Positions 39,412 through 49,160 of a stretch of DNA of 64,000 nt are shown here, piece after piece. The notes under the pieces were generated by a model. The model was not told where the DNA came from. It saw only the letters and a list, made by a program, of their open reading frames with translations, and made no database searches. The DNA is taken from the NCBI RefSeq assembly GCF_009617755.1, contig NZ_BGZH01000001.1, forward strand, positions 1 through 64,000. Reading direction: 5' to 3'. The stretch's first letter is position 1. Every line of letters starts with the position of its first letter. Both the position numbers and the translations under genes were made by a program. Origin of the DNA: Marinobacter salsuginis. Its GTDB lineage: Bacteria > Pseudomonadota > Gammaproteobacteria > Pseudomonadales > Oleiphilaceae.

Positions 39412-40080
39412 ATGGCGAAGAAAGCCAAACAGAACGTTGATAAGATCGTGAAGAAGGTCAACAAGGAGTTCGAAAAGACCTCCGCCCAGATCGAAGGTCT
39501 GGTGAACGATGCACTGAAGCAGTTCGACAGTCTGCAGAATCAGGTTCAGGAGCCAGTACGCAAACTGCTCAAGGAAATTGACGAACTTCGCGACCGTGAG
39601 ATGAAGCGTTTCCACGAAGAGTTTGAACGCCGCCTTGACGAATTTCACGAACTTCAGAGCAGTATTCTTGAACGTCTGGGTGTTGCCTCCAAGGAGGCGG
39701 GCAAGGAAGTGAAGAAACTCACCGACGAAGTGAGCAAAGAAGCCGGCTCCGCCGCTAAAAAAGCAGCCCCGAAGAAAGCCGCCAAACCGGCCGCCAAAGC
39801 AAAAGCCGCTGCCAGCAAGCCTGCTGCCAAAAAGCCGGCTGCCAAGAAACCTGCCGCCAGGAAAGCGCCTGCGGCCAAAGCGGCCAAGCCGGTGGACAAG
39901 AGCGACCTGACACTGGTCAAAGGCATTGGTCCTGCCACTGCCAAGAAGATGAAGGACGCTGGAATCACTTCCATCGACCAGATCGCAAATCCTTCTGCAG
40001 CAGACCAGGAAAAGCTGAAGGCTTTCTCCAACGTCAAGGGATACAGCCAATTTACAGCTGAAGCCAAGAAAATCAGCTAA
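39412..40080 (+). CDS. Coiled-coil (phasin-like) protein with histone-H1-like tail and HhH domain
   Basis: A 222-residue protein with three parts. Residues 1-108 are highly charged helix (QNVDKIVKKVNKEFEKTSAQ and ELRDREMKRFHEEFERRLDEF), reminiscent of phasins. Residues 110-160 are Lys/Ala/Pro repeats (PAAKKPAAKK), like histone H1 or AlgP. Residues 165-222 are a helix-hairpin-helix domain (LTLVKGIGPATAKKMKDAGI). It may bind DNA or polyhydroxyalkanoate granules. Strong AAGGAG precedes the ATG. Its stop overlaps the start of the SelD fusion (TAATG), so the two are coupled, yet no functional link is obvious. Confidence 0.8.
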   Translation: MAKKAKQNVDKIVKKVNKEFEKTSAQIEGLVNDALKQFDSLQNQVQEPVRKLLKEIDELRDREMKRFHEEFERRLDEFHELQSSILERLGVASKEAGKEVKKLTDEVSKEAGSAAKKAAPKKAAKPAAKAKAAASKPAAKKPAAKKPAARKAPAAKAAKPVDKSDLTLVKGIGPATAKKMKDAGITSIDQIANPSAADQEKLKAFSNVKGYSQFTAEAKKIS

Positions 40081-42356
40081 TGCGAACGCCTGACCAGCCT
40101 GTATTACGGGACATTGTCCTGATTGGCGGCGGGCACAGCCACGTCGGGGTACTCAAACGGTTCGCCATGAACCCGGTCCCCGGCGTGCGCCTGACCCTCA
40201 TCTGCCGCGACACCCACACCCCCTATTCCGGCATGTTGCCTGGCTATGTGGCCGGCCACTACAGCTACGATGATGTCCATATAGATCTGAGCCGCCTGGC
40301 AGAATACGCCGGTGCGCGCTTTTATCGTGCCGAAGCCATGGGCATCGACCGGGAACGCAAGCGGGTTATCTGTCGGGGGCGCCCGGACGTACCCTACGAT
40401 ATTCTTTCCATCAACATTGGTTCCTCGCCGCGGGTTAACGAAGTGGAAGGCGCCTCCGATCATGCCGTGCCGGTGAAGCCGATTACCGGTTTCAACAACC
40501 GCTGGCTTGCGCTGCTCTCCCGGATCGAGAACCACGAAGGCCCCCTGACGGTGGCGGTTGTCGGAGCGGGTGCCGGTGGTGTTGAGCTCACCCTGGCAAT
40601 GCAGTTCCGGCTCAAGAACGAATTGAAACAGCGTGGCAAAGACCCTGGGCAGCTCCATTTCCACCTGTTTGACGCAGCAAGCGAAATCCTGCCCACTCAC
40701 AATCCGAAGGTTCGCGAGGTTTTCCGCAGGACGCTGGCGGAACGCGGTGTGAAGGTGCACCTGGGGTCCCCGGTAAGCAAGGTTCAGGAAGGGCTATTGA
40801 TCACCGAATCCGGTGAAACCCTGCAAACCGACGAAGTGCTCTGGGTAACGCGGGCTGGCGGACCGGAGTGGTTGAAGGATACTGGCCTCGCCCTGGATGA
40901 CGGACTGTTCCTCCGTGTGCGGGATACCTTGCAGGTGGAAAACGACGACAGCATTTTCGCTGCCGGCGACATCGCCAATGTACTGAACCATCCCCGGGAG
41001 AAAGCGGGTGTGTTCGCGGTAAGGCAAGGCCCACCGCTGGCTGACAACCTCAAGCGCCTGGCGACTGGCAAGGATCCAAAGGATTTCTACCCCCAGAAAA
41101 AATGGCTGGCGCTGATCAGCACCGGCGATAAATACGCGGTTGCTTCCCGTGGGGATACCCAGTTCGACGGCGCCTGGGTGTGGCGATGGAAGGACTGGAT
41201 CGATCGCCGGTTCATGAAAAAGTTCAACGATCTCCCTCCCATGGAGGAAGAATCCAAATTGCCGGATACCGCGGCGGCCCAGAATGCCGAGGAGGCTTCC
41301 CAGGCAATCTCAGCCGTTGCCATGCGATGCGGGGGTTGTGGTGCCAAGGTGGGCAGTACAGTGCTTTCGCGGGCCCTGGGGGAACTCAAGCCCATTGAAC
41401 GCGACGATATCCTCATCGGCCTTCACGCCCCGGACGATGCAGCCGTCCTGAAGGTACCGCCGGGCAAAGCCGTGGTTCACACGGTGGATTTCTTCCGCGC
41501 ATTTATCGACGATCCCTACATCTTCGGTAAAGTCGCTGCGAATCATAGCCTGGGTGACGTGTTTGCCATGGGCGCCGAGGCACAAAGTGCTACCGCTGTT
41601 GCTACCGTGCCCTACGGCATTGAATCCAAGGTGGAGGACGTGGTCTACCAGATGATGTCCGGTGCCGTGGAAGTGCTGAACGAAGCCGGTTGTGCCCTTG
41701 TTGGCGGGCATACCGGTGAAGGCAAGGAACTGGCCCTGGGCTTTGCGGTTAACGGCCTGATCGACCCGGAAGAGGTCATGAGCAAAGGTGGCCTGAAAGC
41801 CGGAGACGCTCTGATCCTCACCAAGCCCATCGGCACGGGTACCCTGTTCGCTGCTCACGCAAAGCTGGCTGCGAAAGGCCGGTGGATCGACTCTGCCCTC
41901 GCCTCCATGGTGCAATCCAACAAGGCCGCGGCAGACTGTCTCCGTAAGTTTGGCTCCAAAGCGTGCACGGACGTGACCGGGTTCGGCCTGCTTGGGCATC
42001 TGGTTGAAATGACCAAACCTTCGGGCGTCGATGCCGAGCTGGACCTGTCTGCCATACCGATTCTTCCGGGCGCCGAGGAGACCGCAGCCGCCGGGATCCT
42101 CAGCTCCCTGCAACCGGCCAATATCCGCTTGCGCCGGGGGATCCGGGATCAGGGAAAGTGGGTTAACCACGCAAGGTATCCGCTGATCTTTGATCCGCAA
42201 ACCGCGGGAGGGCTACTGGCAAGTGTTGCGGCAGACAAAGCCGAGGAATGTGTGCGGGAGCTAAAGGCCCTGGGCTACCCACATACTGCAGTCATCGGCC
42301 GCATCACCGCTCAGGATGAATCGGGGCCCATCGAGCCCATTTCCCTGCGGGATTAA
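40080..42356 (+). CDS. selD: FAD oxidoreductase-SelD fusion (selenophosphate synthetase)
   Basis: A 758-residue fusion. Residues 1-390 are a pyridine-nucleotide-disulphide oxidoreductase (DIVLIGGGHSHVGVLKRF for FAD, TVAVVGAGAGGVELTLA for NAD(P)H, DSIFAAGDIAN). Residues 410-758 are selenide, water dikinase: MRCGGCGAKVGSTVL with the Cys and Lys of the active site, HAPDDAAVL, VVHTVDFFRAFIDDPYIFGKVAANHSLGDVFAMGA, VGGHTGEGKELALGF and CTDVTGFGLLGHL. The N-terminal family is known as TIGR03169 (N-terminal to SelD), from memory. It should make selenophosphate, perhaps reducing selenium itself. The active-site residue is Cys, not Sec. It overlaps senB tail-to-tail by 4 bp. Confidence 0.95.
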   Translation: MRTPDQPVLRDIVLIGGGHSHVGVLKRFAMNPVPGVRLTLICRDTHTPYSGMLPGYVAGHYSYDDVHIDLSRLAEYAGARFYRAEAMGIDRERKRVICRGRPDVPYDILSINIGSSPRVNEVEGASDHAVPVKPITGFNNRWLALLSRIENHEGPLTVAVVGAGAGGVELTLAMQFRLKNELKQRGKDPGQLHFHLFDAASEILPTHNPKVREVFRRTLAERGVKVHLGSPVSKVQEGLLITESGETLQTDEVLWVTRAGGPEWLKDTGLALDDGLFLRVRDTLQVENDDSIFAAGDIANVLNHPREKAGVFAVRQGPPLADNLKRLATGKDPKDFYPQKKWLALISTGDKYAVASRGDTQFDGAWVWRWKDWIDRRFMKKFNDLPPMEEESKLPDTAAAQNAEEASQAISAVAMRCGGCGAKVGSTVLSRALGELKPIERDDILIGLHAPDDAAVLKVPPGKAVVHTVDFFRAFIDDPYIFGKVAANHSLGDVFAMGAEAQSATAVATVPYGIESKVEDVVYQMMSGAVEVLNEAGCALVGGHTGEGKELALGFAVNGLIDPEEVMSKGGLKAGDALILTKPIGTGTLFAAHAKLAAKGRWIDSALASMVQSNKAAADCLRKFGSKACTDVTGFGLLGHLVEMTKPSGVDAELDLSAIPILPGAEETAAAGILSSLQPANIRLRRGIRDQGKWVNHARYPLIFDPQTAGGLLASVAADKAEECVRELKALGYPHTAVIGRITAQDESGPIEPISLRD

Positions 42357-43339
42357 CACCTCTCTGAGCAGCGCTGCATCGCCAGTTGTAGCGCCTGCTC
42401 CAGGGATGCCTGCTCCTTTTCTGGAAGAAAACGCTCTGCCAGCTTTCCAACCTGTTGCGCCAAAGTGGCCAGAAACCCGGGATCGGTCTCGGCTCGATTC
42501 AGCAGCTCGGCCAGTGCCTCCTCGTTGCCAACCGGGAAATATCCACCATAGTCCGGCCCCAACAAACCGACGTTGCCCGGAATATCGGATGCCAAAACCG
42601 GTAAGCCAGCCCGACAGGCCTCGGATACCACGTTTGCCCCGCCTTCCATGATGGAGCTGATCACCATCACCTGGCTGTTTACCATCAACTGCCGGGTGTC
42701 GGCCTGATCCAACTCTCCGAGCCAACGGAAGCGAGGGTTCTCGGCCATTTCCCGCTCTGCTTTGCGTTGCCACTCGTCGTTGTGAGCCTTGCCGGCGCAG
42801 ACAACCTCGATCCGCGAGTACCCTGGCAGGAGCCGCGCAGCATAGGCCGCCCGGAGAGAGTCCTTTTCGTGCCGCAAATGACCGATTACACACACGCCGA
42901 ACCGGTTGCTCTTGGAGTCCATTTCCGGTTCTGGAAAGGACTCTGGACCCTCGGCTGACTGATACAGCGTTACCAGTTTCTCCGCCAGACCGGCCGGTAT
43001 GTCGTCGGCTACCAGACCGTGCAGTCCGATGAGCGCATCCGCCACGTTCATGGAATAGAGGGTTTGTTCAGGATACTCGTGCTGGTGGTGATAGATATCC
43101 GTACCAGTCAGCGCCACTATGAGTGGCTTTTCGGGCCACGTTTCACGGAACCGCCGGATGGCACCAGCGCTGCGCCAGGCATGCAACGCTATCAGGGCAT
43201 CACAGGGCTCACCGTCGTATTCAGTAACCACACGTACGGAATGACCGGCATTTGCCAGCAGGGTTTTCCAGCGCTCAGCCGTTGCCCGGTTCCCTGCTTT
43301 CGATCCCGGCTTCGCCGGTGTAACCAAGATTAAACGCAT
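42353..43339 (-). CDS. senB: Selenosugar synthase-like glycosyltransferase (SenB, TIGR04348 family)
   Basis: A 328-residue GT-B glycosyltransferase: MRLILVTPAKPGSKAGNRATAERW at the N-terminus, LIALHAWRSAGAIRRFRETWPEKPLIVALTGTDIY, VIGHLRHEKDSLRAAYAARLLP, and SSIMEGGANVVSEACRAGLPVLASDIPGNVGLLG with the EX7E motif. This matches SenB of selenoneine biosynthesis, which joins selenophosphate and UDP-GlcNAc to a selenosugar (from memory of the family). The ATG at 43339 begins the conserved protein; the frame continues upstream but that part covers the solute-binding gene on the other strand. It sits tail-to-tail with selD. No SenA/EgtB-like gene is in the window. Confidence 0.9.
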   Translation of the reverse strand: MRLILVTPAKPGSKAGNRATAERWKTLLANAGHSVRVVTEYDGEPCDALIALHAWRSAGAIRRFRETWPEKPLIVALTGTDIYHHQHEYPEQTLYSMNVADALIGLHGLVADDIPAGLAEKLVTLYQSAEGPESFPEPEMDSKSNRFGVCVIGHLRHEKDSLRAAYAARLLPGYSRIEVVCAGKAHNDEWQRKAEREMAENPRFRWLGELDQADTRQLMVNSQVMVISSIMEGGANVVSEACRAGLPVLASDIPGNVGLLGPDYGGYFPVGNEEALAELLNRAETDPGFLATLAQQVGKLAERFLPEKEQASLEQALQLAMQRCSERC

Positions 43340-43492
43340 TCTAATCGCCTGAATTGGTCGGCCGTCTTGAGCCATTTGAAAACGTATGCCGTATAGCTGT
43401 TCAGAGTTTACGTGAATACAGGTATCCTTCTTTAACAGGAGCCGCTCGTTCAGACTCCCCACTCTAAATATCCGTTTCAACAAGGAAAAACC
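43340..43492. promoter_or_regulatory. Divergent region between senB and the ABC importer operon
   Basis: 153 bp that must hold promoters for senB (minus) and the importer (plus). No recognised operator. Confidence 0.4.
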
Positions 43493-44359
43493 ATGACCCA
43501 CAATCTTATACGGAAATTGCTGATTATTGGTCTCTGTTCTCTGTTCTCTGCAGCCGCATCGGCCCAGACGTTTATTTTCACGGCCATCCCCGATGAAGAC
43601 GAAACCAAGCTCGTCGAGCGTTTCCGCGGCATTGCGGACTACCTGTCCGAGGAACTGGATGCGGATGTAAAGTACATCCCCGTCAAGTCCTATGCAGCCG
43701 CCGTATCTGCATTCCGGAACAATCAGGTGCAACTGGCATGGTTCGGCGGCCTGTCCGGCGTTCAGGCCAGATCCCTGGTACCCGGTTCGCAGGCGATCGC
43801 GCAGGGCTCCGAAGACCAGGCCTTCTACGTTTATTTTATTGCTCATGAGAGCACCGGCCTGGATCGCGCAGACCGTTTGCCTGAAGATGTGCGTGGCAAG
43901 ACATTTACCTTTGGATCGAAAGGCTCGACTTCCGGGCGATTGATTCCCGAATACCACATCCGCGAAACCTTTGGAGAAGCTCCTGAAGACGTATTCTCCC
44001 GTGTGGGTTACAGCGGCAACCACACCCGCACCCTCCGCCTGGTAGAGTCCGGCACTTATGAAGTGGGCGCCATGAACTTCGCGGTCTGGGAAAAAGAACT
44101 GGAAAACGGAAACATCAATACCGATGCGGTGAAGGTGATCTGGAAAACGCCAAGTTTCCCAAACTATCAGTGGAGCATCCGTGGCGACGTGGATGAAAAC
44201 TACGGCGAAGGCTTTACCGATCGCGTCCGCGAGGCCCTGCTCTCCCTGGATGATCCTGAGTTGCTTGAAAGCTTCCCGCGCTCTGCGTTTGTTCCCGCTT
44301 CAAACGATGATTACGAGCCGATTCGCAAGGTTGCAAAAGAAATCGGAATCATTGATTGA
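43493..44359 (+). CDS. PhnD-type binding protein, putative selenium oxyanion importer
   Basis: A 288-residue periplasmic protein: signal peptide (LIIGLCSLFSAAASA), then FIFTAIPDEDETKLVERFRGIADYLSEEL, VKSYAAAVSAFRNNQVQLAWFGGLSGVQA, KTFTFGSKGSTSGRLIPEYHIR and GNHTRTLRLVESGTYEVGAMNFAVW. This is the phosphonate/phosphite PhnD fold. A subfamily annotated as putative selenate binding protein lies beside SelD/SenB genes in other genomes (from memory), and that context is exactly what is seen here. Ligand is therefore inferred: selenate or another selenium oxyanion. First of three genes with 1-bp and 13-bp junctions. Confidence 0.82.
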   Translation: MTHNLIRKLLIIGLCSLFSAAASAQTFIFTAIPDEDETKLVERFRGIADYLSEELDADVKYIPVKSYAAAVSAFRNNQVQLAWFGGLSGVQARSLVPGSQAIAQGSEDQAFYVYFIAHESTGLDRADRLPEDVRGKTFTFGSKGSTSGRLIPEYHIRETFGEAPEDVFSRVGYSGNHTRTLRLVESGTYEVGAMNFAVWEKELENGNINTDAVKVIWKTPSFPNYQWSIRGDVDENYGEGFTDRVREALLSLDDPELLESFPRSAFVPASNDDYEPIRKVAKEIGIID

Positions 44360-45009
44360 TGGCAGGCTTTGATCTCTCGGGCCTCACGGCCTCATTTGGG
44401 GGTGAGCGGGTTATCGGCCCGCTCACCCTTACTGTTAAGGAGGGAGATCAGGTCGCCCTGGTCGGGAAGAGTGGTGCCGGAAAATCCACTCTGATCCGGC
44501 TCATTCACAAGAGGGTGGATCGGGAATCGTCTCTCGTACCACAAGAGCTTGGCCTGGTTAACGCCCTACCGGTATTCCACAACGTTTTCATGGGGCAGCT
44601 GGACAAACACGCCACCTGGTACAACACCGTTACCCTGATCCGGCCCTTCAAGCAGGATAGAAAGCAGATTTCAGAACTGCTGGACGCGCTGAGAATGTCA
44701 GAGAAACTCTGGATCCCGACAGCGTCCCTTTCCGGCGGACAGCGCCAACGGGTGGCCATTGCCAGAGCCCTTTATCGCAACGCTCCCGTGTTACTGGCAG
44801 ACGAACCGATCTCCGCACTGGATGGGCCAATGGCACATCACGTCATGAAACTGCTGAAAGACCGCTTCAAAACCAGCGTTATTGCGCTGCACGACGTGGA
44901 CATGGCCATGAAGTACTGTAACCGCATTGTTGGCATCCAGGATGGCCAGGTCGCCCTGGATGAGCCTACAGAACGATTGACGGCTGCAGACATCATGTCG
45001 CTGTACTAG
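44359..45009 (+). CDS. ABC importer ATPase (PhnC-like)
   Basis: A 216-residue ATPase: ALVGKSGAGKSTLIRLIHK (Walker A), ASLSGGQRQRVAIARALYRNAPVLLADEPISALD (signature and Walker B), ALHDVDMAMKY (switch His). It powers the importer with the adjacent permease. The ATG overlaps the stop of the binding protein gene (TGATG). It is shorter than PhnC (about 260 residues), having a compact helical domain. Confidence 0.92.
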   Translation: MAGFDLSGLTASFGGERVIGPLTLTVKEGDQVALVGKSGAGKSTLIRLIHKRVDRESSLVPQELGLVNALPVFHNVFMGQLDKHATWYNTVTLIRPFKQDRKQISELLDALRMSEKLWIPTASLSGGQRQRVAIARALYRNAPVLLADEPISALDGPMAHHVMKLLKDRFKTSVIALHDVDMAMKYCNRIVGIQDGQVALDEPTERLTAADIMSLY

Positions 45010-45022
45010 GACCTGTCCCGCG

Positions 45023-46489
45023 ATGCTCTCCTACCCGACGGTTCGCACCAGCCTGATTTTTCTTACGATTGCGCTCGTGGGGTTGCTGTTTGCCGACATA
45101 GCGATAACCGCCAACAATCCCTGGCGAGACCTTGGCAATTTTTTCCTGGGCGTACTGACCCCCAATTTCTTCAGTAGCGAAGGGCTGCTTACCGCCCTGT
45201 TACGAACCGTGGCCTTTGCGTTCGTGGGGGTGACGGTTGGCGCTATTTGCGGCTTTCTGTTGGCACTGGTATATCGCTTTCTCCCGGTTCGTATATTCTG
45301 TGCCTTTATCAGGGCCATTCACGAGCTGTTCTGGGCTCTGATTTTTCTCCAATTTTTCGGCTTCCACCCGCTGACGGGCGTACTGGCAATCGCAATTCCC
45401 TATTCCGGCATTTTTGCCAAGGTTTACTCCGAGATTCTTGAAGAGGCAGATCCGGAACCGGGCAGGTTATTGCCTCCGGGCACTGGCACCATTGCGGCCT
45501 TCCTGTACACCAAGATCCCGGATTGCTGGGTTCAGCTTCGGACCTACACGGCCTATCGTCTTGAATGCGGTCTTCGCTCAAGCGCTATCCTCGGTTTCGT
45601 TGGCCTGCCGACATTGGGGTTTTATCTGGAAACCTCATTCTCGCAAGGCATGTACTCTGATGCCGGCGCGATGCTGATCCTGTTCTATGTGCTTATTGCC
45701 ACCATCCCCCTCTGGGTGAAACCCAAGTTGTTGCCAGTGTATATCCTGGGCGCTCCGTTCTTCCTTGGCGATGGCTTGCCCATAGTCTGGGGCAACGTTG
45801 AGCGGTTCTTCACCCAGGACATTGTGCCCAGCCCACTGAGGGATGATGAGGGCCTCTCTGGCCTACTGCCGTGGCTCAATGAATTGATGATTGAACAGGC
45901 CCTGCCCGGTATCTGGAATACCGTGATCCTCACGCAGATCGCGCTCGTGGCCACCGGCATCCTCGCATTACTCGCGTTCCCGCTGATATCGAACCATTTT
46001 GGTGGCCCAATACGCCGGACCTCCGGGCATGTTTTCCTGGTGATTGCGCGATCAACACCGGAATACATCCTGGCCTACATTCTCCTGCAGCTGTGGGGGC
46101 CCTCCATGCTGCCGGCCGTAGTTGCATTGGCGCTGCACAACGGCGGAATCATCGGCCATCTCATTGGCCGGCAAACCAACACAATCCGGTTGAGATCCGA
46201 CGCTCCCCACGGCTTCAATCGTTATGGCTGGGAGTTGGTACCCCGAATCTACCGCGCATTCCTGGCCTTCCTGTTCTACCGCTGGGAAATCATCATGCGT
46301 GAGACCGCCATCCTGGGCATTCTTGGAATCTATACCCTTGGTTTCTACGTCGATAGTGCCATTCAAAGCATCCGTTTTGATCAGGCAATGGTGCTCATAC
46401 TGATCACCGCCATGCTGAACATTGGCGTAGACATCCTTGGCCGCTTCATTCGCCGCAAGCTGGCCCTGCAAACCATGCCTACCTGCTAG
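45023..46489 (+). CDS. ABC importer permease, two fused PhnE-type units
   Basis: A 488-residue membrane protein with two BPD_transp_1 units in one chain: first unit about 60-240 (TALLRTVAFAFVGVTVGAICGFLLALVYRFLP, SGIFAKVYSEILEEADPE), second about 290-480 (GIWNTVILTQIALVATGILALLAFPL, RSTPEYILAYILLQLWGPS, RETAILGILGIYTLGFYVD). A single fused chain can replace the PhnE homodimer. With the binding protein and ATPase it completes an importer, by context for selenium oxyanion. Confidence 0.9.
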   Translation: MLSYPTVRTSLIFLTIALVGLLFADIAITANNPWRDLGNFFLGVLTPNFFSSEGLLTALLRTVAFAFVGVTVGAICGFLLALVYRFLPVRIFCAFIRAIHELFWALIFLQFFGFHPLTGVLAIAIPYSGIFAKVYSEILEEADPEPGRLLPPGTGTIAAFLYTKIPDCWVQLRTYTAYRLECGLRSSAILGFVGLPTLGFYLETSFSQGMYSDAGAMLILFYVLIATIPLWVKPKLLPVYILGAPFFLGDGLPIVWGNVERFFTQDIVPSPLRDDEGLSGLLPWLNELMIEQALPGIWNTVILTQIALVATGILALLAFPLISNHFGGPIRRTSGHVFLVIARSTPEYILAYILLQLWGPSMLPAVVALALHNGGIIGHLIGRQTNTIRLRSDAPHGFNRYGWELVPRIYRAFLAFLFYRWEIIMRETAILGILGIYTLGFYVDSAIQSIRFDQAMVLILITAMLNIGVDILGRFIRRKLALQTMPTC

Positions 46490-46624
46490 CCCCAGCCACT
46501 GCGATCCCCGTCACAGTTCCGTCATTTCAGTCAATCCTCGCCCGGGTAATGGGGACGGGTTGGCGGTATTGGCAGGATACATTCCGTTACACTCCGATAA
46601 CCTCTTGCAACATTCAGAGTTCTG

Positions 46625-47236
46625 GTGATGATGGTAAACGGATTGATTCTCTTGGTTCAGCTTGGGCTGCTTGCACTGCTTGTTCTTCTGGCTGTGAAGA
46701 TGATCTCGCTGATGCGCGCCGAGCCTCTGGCTGCCGGCCATCGGGAAGACTGGGCAGGCAATCATCCGGGAACCCATCAGTCTGAACCAGCCTCACGGCA
46801 TTCAGAGTGGCCAGTCGCAGTGCGCAAACCGGTTGTCGACGCTGCCCCGGACCGCGCCGAGCTGATTACCCAGCTGCATATTCTGGCGGGCCTTCAGGAA
46901 AGGGATTGTCGAGTGAACGGCCTGGATCTATCAACGGCGCCGAATGCGGTTAAGACGTACGCGGCGGTCTGGCTCTATGGCGCTGGTTGTGCCCTCAGCG
47001 ACAAAACCAATCGGCACTCTTCGGCTCTGGCAGCCACCGTTGCCCAGATTGCCAGTCGAAAAACCGGAATTCGTCAGTCAGAGATCGTTGAGGCGATCGA
47101 TACCTTGACGGCCAGTACGGTTTACCTGGCGTGTTTCAAGGCGGGGTTGGAAGGAGCGGAATTCTGGCGGTTCAACCACTATGTACCGCCGACTTCGAGC
47201 CTTTACGAGGCCATCACCGCTAACGCGTTTATTTAG
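46625..47236 (+). CDS. Membrane-anchored protein of unknown function
   Basis: I do not recognise this 203-residue protein. It has one N-terminal TM segment (GLILLVQLGLLALLVLLAVKMI), a polar linker to about residue 70, and a helical C-terminal domain (AVKTYAAVWLYGAGCALSDK, HSSALAATVAQIASRKTGIRQSEIVEAIDTLTASTVYLACFKAGLEGAEFW). The start may be GTG at 46625 or one of two ATGs directly after. It converges with a small minus-strand gene, overlapping it by 8 bp at the stops. Confidence 0.65.
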   Translation: MMMVNGLILLVQLGLLALLVLLAVKMISLMRAEPLAAGHREDWAGNHPGTHQSEPASRHSEWPVAVRKPVVDAAPDRAELITQLHILAGLQERDCRVNGLDLSTAPNAVKTYAAVWLYGAGCALSDKTNRHSSALAATVAQIASRKTGIRQSEIVEAIDTLTASTVYLACFKAGLEGAEFWRFNHYVPPTSSLYEAITANAFI

Positions 47237-47540
47237 CAGCCTGCCCGGGGGCAGTCTCAAGTACCCAATCGGTGCCCAGTGCCACAGGTTCTGCGTGATC
47301 CTGTTCGTCAGCACGGGTGCCGGTGATCTCGGGCCGGCTGAATCCACCATCGTCGGTATTGGCCATGCTGTCCACATCGACAGAACGAACCACATAGGCC
47401 ACGCCATCGGACAACACTTTCGCCCGGTGAGTTAATCCGAAGACAAACCGGCAGTAATCCAGTTTGAGCTGAATCAGATCCTGCTCCGCTTTGCGGATTT
47501 TTCTCAGCAGTACCTTCTGAACGCTATCTCCGTAATCCAT
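47229..47540 (-). CDS. Small protein of unknown function
   Basis: A 103-residue soluble protein with a basic, helical N-terminus (SVQKVLLRKIRKAEQDLIQLKLDYCRFVFGL) followed by HRAKVLSDGVAYVVRSVDVDSM and a low-complexity tail. No family recognised. ATG at 47540 has AGGGAC ahead. It overlaps the preceding gene tail-to-tail by 8 bp; the 85 bp to the next gene hold nothing evident. Confidence 0.5.
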   Translation of the reverse strand: MDYGDSVQKVLLRKIRKAEQDLIQLKLDYCRFVFGLTHRAKVLSDGVAYVVRSVDVDSMANTDDGGFSRPEITGTRADEQDHAEPVALGTDWVLETAPGQAAK

Positions 47541-47624
47541 CACGTTGTCCCTGGTAGTGGCGGTATGGTGATTTTACACAATCCGGGCCCGTTGTCAGCC
47601 GACTGACGTCCGGTTGCCCTTGTC

Positions 47625-48107
47625 TCAGTGTGGCTCGGCCTGAAATACCAGCTTTGCCGGAATGCCCTCGATAGGCTGTTGCCCCTGCTGCAGATCAATC
47701 CGCCAGGTCATGGTAGCGTCTACGGTACAGAATGGCGCCGTAAAACGCGCGGAGTATTCGTTTCCGTCCCGGTTGCCCAGTGGTACGGGATACTCGCCCA
47801 TGTACATGGACTCTCCCCGAAGAACGGCGAGAAAACGCTCCGGCCGTTCTGGTGTAACTACCGTGAGTTGGTACTCCATGCCCTGGGTGCCCTCACCCAG
47901 TTCGCTCAGGCTGATTTGCCACTCGCCCGAACCGTCTGACCAACTGCAAGGGCCCTCCTGAAGCAAATCACAGCGGGCAAGGGGCGAACTCTCTTTGGCA
48001 GTAGCACCTTCCAGGTCACTATTAGCATCTTCAAGCAAGCCCGGACCAAACACTGCCACGGCAACAAGCCCCAGAATCAATCCTGCCACTGCTATTGCGC
48101 GTAACAT
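47625..48107 (-). CDS. Exported protein of unknown function
   Basis: A 160-residue protein with an N-terminal hydrophobic segment (IAVAGLILGLVAVAVFG) that is a signal peptide or anchor, and a mature part with three or four Cys (ARCDLLQEGPCSW, APFCTVDATMTW) and a beta-rich pattern. Not recognised. I start at MLRAIAV; longer frames would run into the start of the divergent ABC gene at 48240. Its head-to-head position with the ABC exporter may only reflect shared intergenic DNA. Confidence 0.6.
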   Translation of the reverse strand: MLRAIAVAGLILGLVAVAVFGPGLLEDANSDLEGATAKESSPLARCDLLQEGPCSWSDGSGEWQISLSELGEGTQGMEYQLTVVTPERPERFLAVLRGESMYMGEYPVPLGNRDGNEYSARFTAPFCTVDATMTWRIDLQQGQQPIEGIPAKLVFQAEPH

Positions 48108-48239
48108 AACGGCACCCCGAACAAACCTGCCGGGCATTATGGGGATTTCTACCGCCAAGGCAAAGGTTTCTAAACTGGCGCCAGTCATGAGAAAATACCG
48201 CGCCTTCAATTCGACCCATTTTGACCACAGGACACGCCC

Positions 48240-49160
<921 letters not shown>

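Follow-up and report, generated by a model that had tools for sequence, protein, structure and literature searches.

A selenium gene block in Marinobacter salsuginis as the probable front end of an unclustered ovoselenol pathway

The selenium gene block found at positions 40080..46489 of the window (the whole 64,000-nucleotide stretch of Marinobacter salsuginis DNA that was analysed) probably encodes the first steps of an ovoselenol pathway, the later ones (OvsA and a methyltransferase) being encoded elsewhere in the genome. As judged from the sequence, the most likely product is a selenohistidine (ovoselenol), and neither selenoneine nor a bare selenosugar. The coordinates and reading frames given for the block by a first-pass annotation were correct, and its genes are listed below.

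40080..42356, plus strand: oxidoreductase-SelD (selenide, water dikinase) fusion (TIGR03169, TIGR00476).
42353..43339, minus strand: senB, predicted selenosugar synthase (TIGR04348, solved SenB chains, five key residues).
43493..44359, plus strand: PhnD-like periplasmic binding protein of the TIGR04553 "putative selenate ABC transporter" family.
44356..45009, plus strand: PhnC-like ABC ATPase with a TTG start as listed (TIGR02315 below cut-off, PF00005).
45023..46489, plus strand: permease made of two PhnE-like halves (TIGR01097 below cut-off, two stretches).

The tail-to-tail overlap of selD and senB claimed by the first-pass annotation was confirmed (4 bases), and the cut-offs of curated profiles bear out the identities given to both genes. 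In the upstream gene product a pyridine-nucleotide oxidoreductase is joined to SelD. It matches TIGR03169 with 512 bits (cut-off 310), and its SelD part matches TIGR00476 with 302 bits (cut-off 125). TIGR04369, the "fusion_not_SelD" model, gives 480 bits, under its cut-off of 700. When aligned to the solved SelD 3u0o, the GGCGAK/AGCGCK stretch keeps the second Cys and the Lys; the Cys and Lys of this stretch are the residues that we take to be catalytic. The fusion was detected in 86 of the 98 same-genus SenB stretches fetched. SelD and SenB overlap by their ends in 58 of these 86, and SelD is more than 900 bases away in two. In Marinobacter vinifirmus (L009) SenB and the importer are kept and the SelD fusion was not found in the stretch, as in 12 of the 98 same-genus stretches. 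SelD would also feed SelU for the synthesis of 2-selenouridine in tRNA. Of selA and selU, which had been proposed as genes to look for, SelU is encoded in the genome (353 bits) but SelA gave no match in a whole-genome TIGR00474 search at E 0.001.

The minus strand frame 42353-43339 reaches 415 bits with TIGR04348 (cut-off 300) and 180 bits with the solved SenB chains 8jjq/8fbx. Its placement by profile search had been named beforehand as the result on which the annotation could fall, and it is inside the SenB family. The available text of the Variovorax SenB study (PMC10891094) reports N20, T23, K158, E231 and E239 as important, among them the lysine and sugar-binding residues. Their equivalents in M. 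salsuginis SenB are N17, T20, K159, E232 and E240. All five are kept in 108 of 108 aligned rows, which come from the 98 same-genus stretches and ten other loci, with some genomes represented twice. By family and catalytic residues this gene is thus predicted to code for an enzyme that makes a selenosugar. Marinobacter accounts for six of the seven named loci carrying a SenB relative, a ground for taking the same-genus set to be Marinobacter.

A three-gene importer of the PhnD type is present, as had been noted, but the description that it follows SenB has to be amended. senB is on the minus strand and divergent from the importer, which is therefore not in one transcript after senB. The binding protein scores 428 bits with TIGR04553 (cut-off 250), a family whose own name is marked putative, and 141 bits with the PhnD equivalog, under the cut-off of 261. 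The ATPase (TIGR02315, 166 bits, under the cut-off of 266) matches ABC_tran PF00005, and the permease reaches 199 bits with TIGR01097 across two stretches, under the cut-off of 216.7. It is possible, if rather unlikely, that this importer carries phosphite or phosphonate and is a mere neighbour, a view otherwise compatible with ovoselenol synthesis and favoured by the names of the nearest solved binding proteins, which are phosphonate-binding (7s6g, 227 bits; 5lq5, 194 bits). Against it stand the position of the binding protein well above the TIGR04553 cut-off and below that of PhnD, as well as two kinds of linkage. The SenB neighbourhood comparison suggested by the first-pass annotation showed that the importer adjoins senB in nearly all same-genus stretches: the binding protein is found in 97 of 98 (missed in L164), adjoining senB on the opposite strand in 97 of 98, and the ATPase and the permease in 97 each, both being missed in L202, a contig of 3,994 bases. 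The same importer is also found near SenA, SenB, EgtD and SelD in the genomes G042, G104 and G001, which represent two other families; this ties it to selenium and not to ovoselenol alone. Import of selenium is thus a putative function of the transporter, supported by conserved linkage, including linkage to complete SenA clusters elsewhere.

No Rfam match was found at gathering thresholds in the segment 38800-48300. A comparison with 8 close relatives shows uneven sequence identity across the region. SenB (80% in the median), the binding protein (either 73-75% or 94-97% identical to that of the window) and the genes 46625-47236 and 47625-48266 vary strongly; the SelD fusion, the nitrilase and the ABC gene at 48240 are 94-99% identical to the window. 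This uneven pattern across 42353-48266 may reflect recombination within the block or rapid evolution there.

The block itself has no SenA/EgtB-like gene, as had been stated, an observation that is true locally. The genome (4.15 Mb in 10 contigs, 99.93% complete) was searched for the FGE-sulfatase domain and three proteins were identified: a lipoprotein, a full OvoA and an enzyme of 459 amino acids. The lipoprotein (L001) was ruled out as a SenA candidate, with 39 bits to the SenA model. The 459-aa enzyme is encoded on the same contig as senB, 1.46 Mb apart by contig coordinates.

G000:C1:1503823-1505202, minus strand: OvsA (selenoxide synthase), 459 aa (660 bits to 8u41).

The genome-wide search for an EgtB/SenA homologue, as advised in the first-pass annotation, thus does return a SenA-like enzyme, but this enzyme is OvsA by sequence and not SenA: it aligns to the solved OvsA 8u41 with 660 bits, to the solved SenA with 171 and to EgtB with 181. 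As read from the alignments, the solved variant 8ux5 departs from 8u41 by Met to Tyr and Gln-Ala to Asn-Phe. At these sites M. salsuginis OvsA has Met409, Gln438 and Ala439, and three His are also present. Met/Gln/Ala was found in 52 of 52 same-genus OvsA sequences, own included, sampled from the 99 OvsA-bearing genomes (one repeat OvsA was left out). The four SenA examined all have Tyr first, followed by Asn-Phe in two and Thr-Tyr in two, while the same sites read Tyr-Asn-Phe in 14 of 14 EgtB and Phe-Tyr-Ala in 8 of 8 OvoA. In a tree built by a quick method, with long-branch warnings, OvsA, SenA, EgtB and OvoA fall in separate groups and the OvsA sequences form one clade with 8u41. We identify the distant enzyme as a predicted OvsA on these three lines, namely sequence, active-site letters and tree. 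Three side observations concern the distribution of such enzymes. In the single-contig genomes G197 and G204, ovsA appears split over two frames. The same-genus genome G159 (L108, L109) combines SenB with both kinds of enzyme, a SenA-type one (511 bits) encoded at 34 kb from senB and an OvsA whose gene is on a different contig; EgtD was not found within 17 kb around its SenA, and this strain may make two selenium compounds. The Planctomycetota MAG L010 has a SenA/OvsA-like enzyme, 42% identical to OvsA, directly adjoining a SenB of 45% identity; in its 21 kb neither the EgtD query nor the methyltransferase query found a relative.

Production of selenoneine would require that the distant enzyme work as a SenA and that its substrate hercynine be imported. 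The NCBIfam SenA model NF041186 does call it SenA (431 bits, just over the cut-off of 420). However, all ten same-genus OvsA that were tested also pass this model, at 425-441 bits and so near the cut-off, whereas four SenA score 471-515. The far higher score with OvsA (660 bits) than with SenA (171) and the signature residues M/Q/A, instead of Y/N/F or Y/T/Y, make this alternative scarcely credible. EgtD is required for hercynine. It had no match in a PF10017 search of the whole genome at E 0.1, which makes selenoneine unlikely. In the three genomes of two other families EgtD is encoded near SenA and SenB. Among nine genomes tested for EgtD, six of them same-genus, it was found in these three with SenA and also in the OvsA-bearing G017 and G082, where it adjoins an EgtB. 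EgtD is thus not a clean marker of SenA. A literature search found no paper joining Marinobacter with selenoneine. The assignment of the distant enzyme to OvsA on all three lines, together with the failure to find EgtD, points to a selenohistidine product.

SenB and OvsA occur together. Within 112 same-genus (Marinobacter-like) genomes SenB is present in 99 and OvsA in exactly those 99, and both are absent from the other 13. Without correction, such a pattern has a chance probability of 3e-17, a figure that ignores shared ancestry; in five of the 13 genomes lacking SenB and OvsA the OvoA frame has the same length (736 aa) and the same score (about 318 bits), and these five may form one clade. 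Among 145 genomes of the order, SenB exceeds the cut-off in eight, and the same eight hold the eight best OvsA/SenA matches (at least 272 bits; the next one has 146). Five of the eight are same-genus genomes with a distant OvsA; the other three belong to two different families, and in them SenA adjoins SenB and EgtD is near. The association is not one of position in the genus. SenB and OvsA are unlinked in 27 of 27 same-genus genomes that carry both on one contig, where the smallest distance is 1.14 Mb in linear coordinates (if the circle is closed some are nearer, about 0.50 Mb in G204).

A block that ends at the selenosugar, or a SenB that glycosylates something else, would account for the lack of SenA or OvsA beside the block, and the available text of one source reports that SenB uses several UDP-sugars (PMC10891094). 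With OvsA in 99 of 99 SenB-bearing genomes of the genus, this is very improbable. The first-pass annotation had allowed for another organoselenium product, for a pathway ending with the selenosugar and for reliance on a distant senA. Its reading is partly supported. The evidence favours the different product, reached via a distant SenA-like partner; as OvsA was found, a bare selenosugar is not the likeliest product.

The last step would be carried out by an N-methyltransferase encoded 0.91 Mb beyond ovsA.

G000:C1:2416776-2417531, plus strand: stand-alone N-methyltransferase (TIGR04345, 309 bits).

Compared with solved structures this protein scores 258 bits with OvoA, 256 with OvoM and 221 with OvsM. 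At least one TIGR04345 match exists in all 99 OvsA-bearing genomes, and its location defines two types. In 30 of the 99 a copy of at most 330 aa is found beside ovsA on the same strand, and these 30 have no second short copy. In 65 a copy of at most 330 aa is located at another site, to which G174 adds one of 338 aa (66/99). In the remaining three (G211, G214, G221) the methyltransferase domain is found only inside a full OvoA. The 13 genomes without OvsA have a full OvoA in six cases, no TIGR04345 match in seven and a stand-alone copy in none. One ovsA-adjacent copy, also compared with the solved structures, scores 272 bits with OvsM, 245 with OvoA and 232 with OvoM. A tree of 73 rows was built from 20 of the 30 adjacent-copy genomes, 22 of the 66 distant-copy genomes and 28 OvoA rows (nine repeat fetches were left out and three genes are still present twice). 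The ovsA-adjacent type forms one deep clade. Of the distant copies, 19 of 22 are in a clade beside the OvoA C-terminal domains and three (G174, G175, G217) are on the OvoA side; no OvoA N-terminal half was found in the 7-8 kb around the stand-alone copies of these three (L213, L216, L225). A frame as long as OvoA also occurs in 18 genomes of the distant type (out of 65) and in 7 of the adjacent type (out of 30), counts that cover frames with a methyltransferase domain, the OvsA search thresholds being such that an OvoA N-terminal half would be missed.

The stand-alone methyltransferase may instead serve ovothiol. The pathway would then stop at unmethylated 5-selenohistidine and the enzyme would be an OvoM. 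Its greater proximity to OvoA/OvoM than to OvsM, the place of its clade beside the OvoA C-terminal domains and the full OvoA of the genome agree with this reading, which we nevertheless hold to be unlikely. The OvoA of M. salsuginis has its own methyltransferase domain (359 bits), which would make a second one redundant for ovothiol; a role in selenohistidine methylation would be the simplest explanation of the additional copy. Furthermore, TIGR04345 in a frame of at most 338 aa is restricted to OvsA-bearing genomes in the genus (96/99 versus 0/13), and the 30 genomes with an ovsA-adjacent copy lack a second short one. Taking methylation of selenohistidine as the preferred role, we lean slightly towards the view that the genus holds ovoselenol synthesis as an unclustered trait whose last enzyme has been exchanged. 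The adjacent enzyme (30/99; OvsM-like in the one compared) and the distant enzyme (66/99; OvoM/OvoA-like in the one compared) were not found together in any one genome, and in 3/99 the domain exists only inside OvoA. A literature search on OvsM/OvoM as selenohistidine or thiohistidine methyltransferases gave no match, and the papers found for ovoselenol refer to it only in passing.

The proposed pathway would begin with uptake of a selenium oxyanion by the importer. After reduction of the oxyanion SelD would make selenophosphate, which SenB, by its family and catalytic residues, is expected to join to a UDP-sugar to give the selenosugar. OvsA, by its family, would couple the selenosugar to histidine, yielding 5-selenohistidine after loss of the sugar. 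Finally, the stand-alone N-methyltransferase would probably methylate 5-selenohistidine to ovoselenol. As senB, ovsA and the methyltransferase gene are not linked to one another, operon structure lends the pathway no support in this genome. A selenium cluster without a coupling enzyme resembles a locus for a new selenometabolite; the whole-genome view points towards a known antioxidant, ovoselenol. Cluster-based mining misses split pathways such as this block and the ovsA 1.46 Mb away, and the current NCBIfam SenA model, labelled "selenoneine synthase SenA", also passes OvsA (11/11 tested). If the methyltransferase exchange is real, it offers a natural experiment on the acceptance of selenohistidine by OvoM-type enzymes, and Marinobacter would be a marine genus suited to studying the function of ovoselenol.

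The system described here can be compared with four known ones. The SelU selenouridine trait has SelD in common with it, and SelU is present, but that trait is a tRNA modification and is not known to need SenB. The selenoneine (sen) pathway uses SenC/SelD, SenB and SenA acting on hercynine (PMC9814287). SelD and SenB are shared, and the same SelD, SenB and importer genes surround SenA, with EgtD near, in the three genomes of two other families, whereas in M. salsuginis the block has no SenA and EgtD was not found in the genome. In the ovothiol pathway (OvoA, OvoM), OvoA couples cysteine to histidine, according to the available text of PMC12631010. The resemblance lies in the full OvoA encoded elsewhere in the genome and in the extra methyltransferase that is similar to OvoM; the difference is that OvoA uses cysteine and not a selenosugar, and that its gene is separate from that of OvsA. 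Closest is the ovoselenol pathway, with an OvsA that has the same three active-site letters (660 bits) and with SenB and SelD present. Here the genes are at three places of one contig, and the stand-alone methyltransferase is nearer OvoM/OvoA than OvsM; OvsA and OvsM are named as such in PDB entries. The ovoselenol biosynthesis pathway was reportedly presented by Kayrouz et al. in Nature Chemistry in 2024, and the dispersed layout may already have been described in that study. Ovoselenol is a known compound; the dispersed layout and the methyltransferase swap are the less familiar parts.
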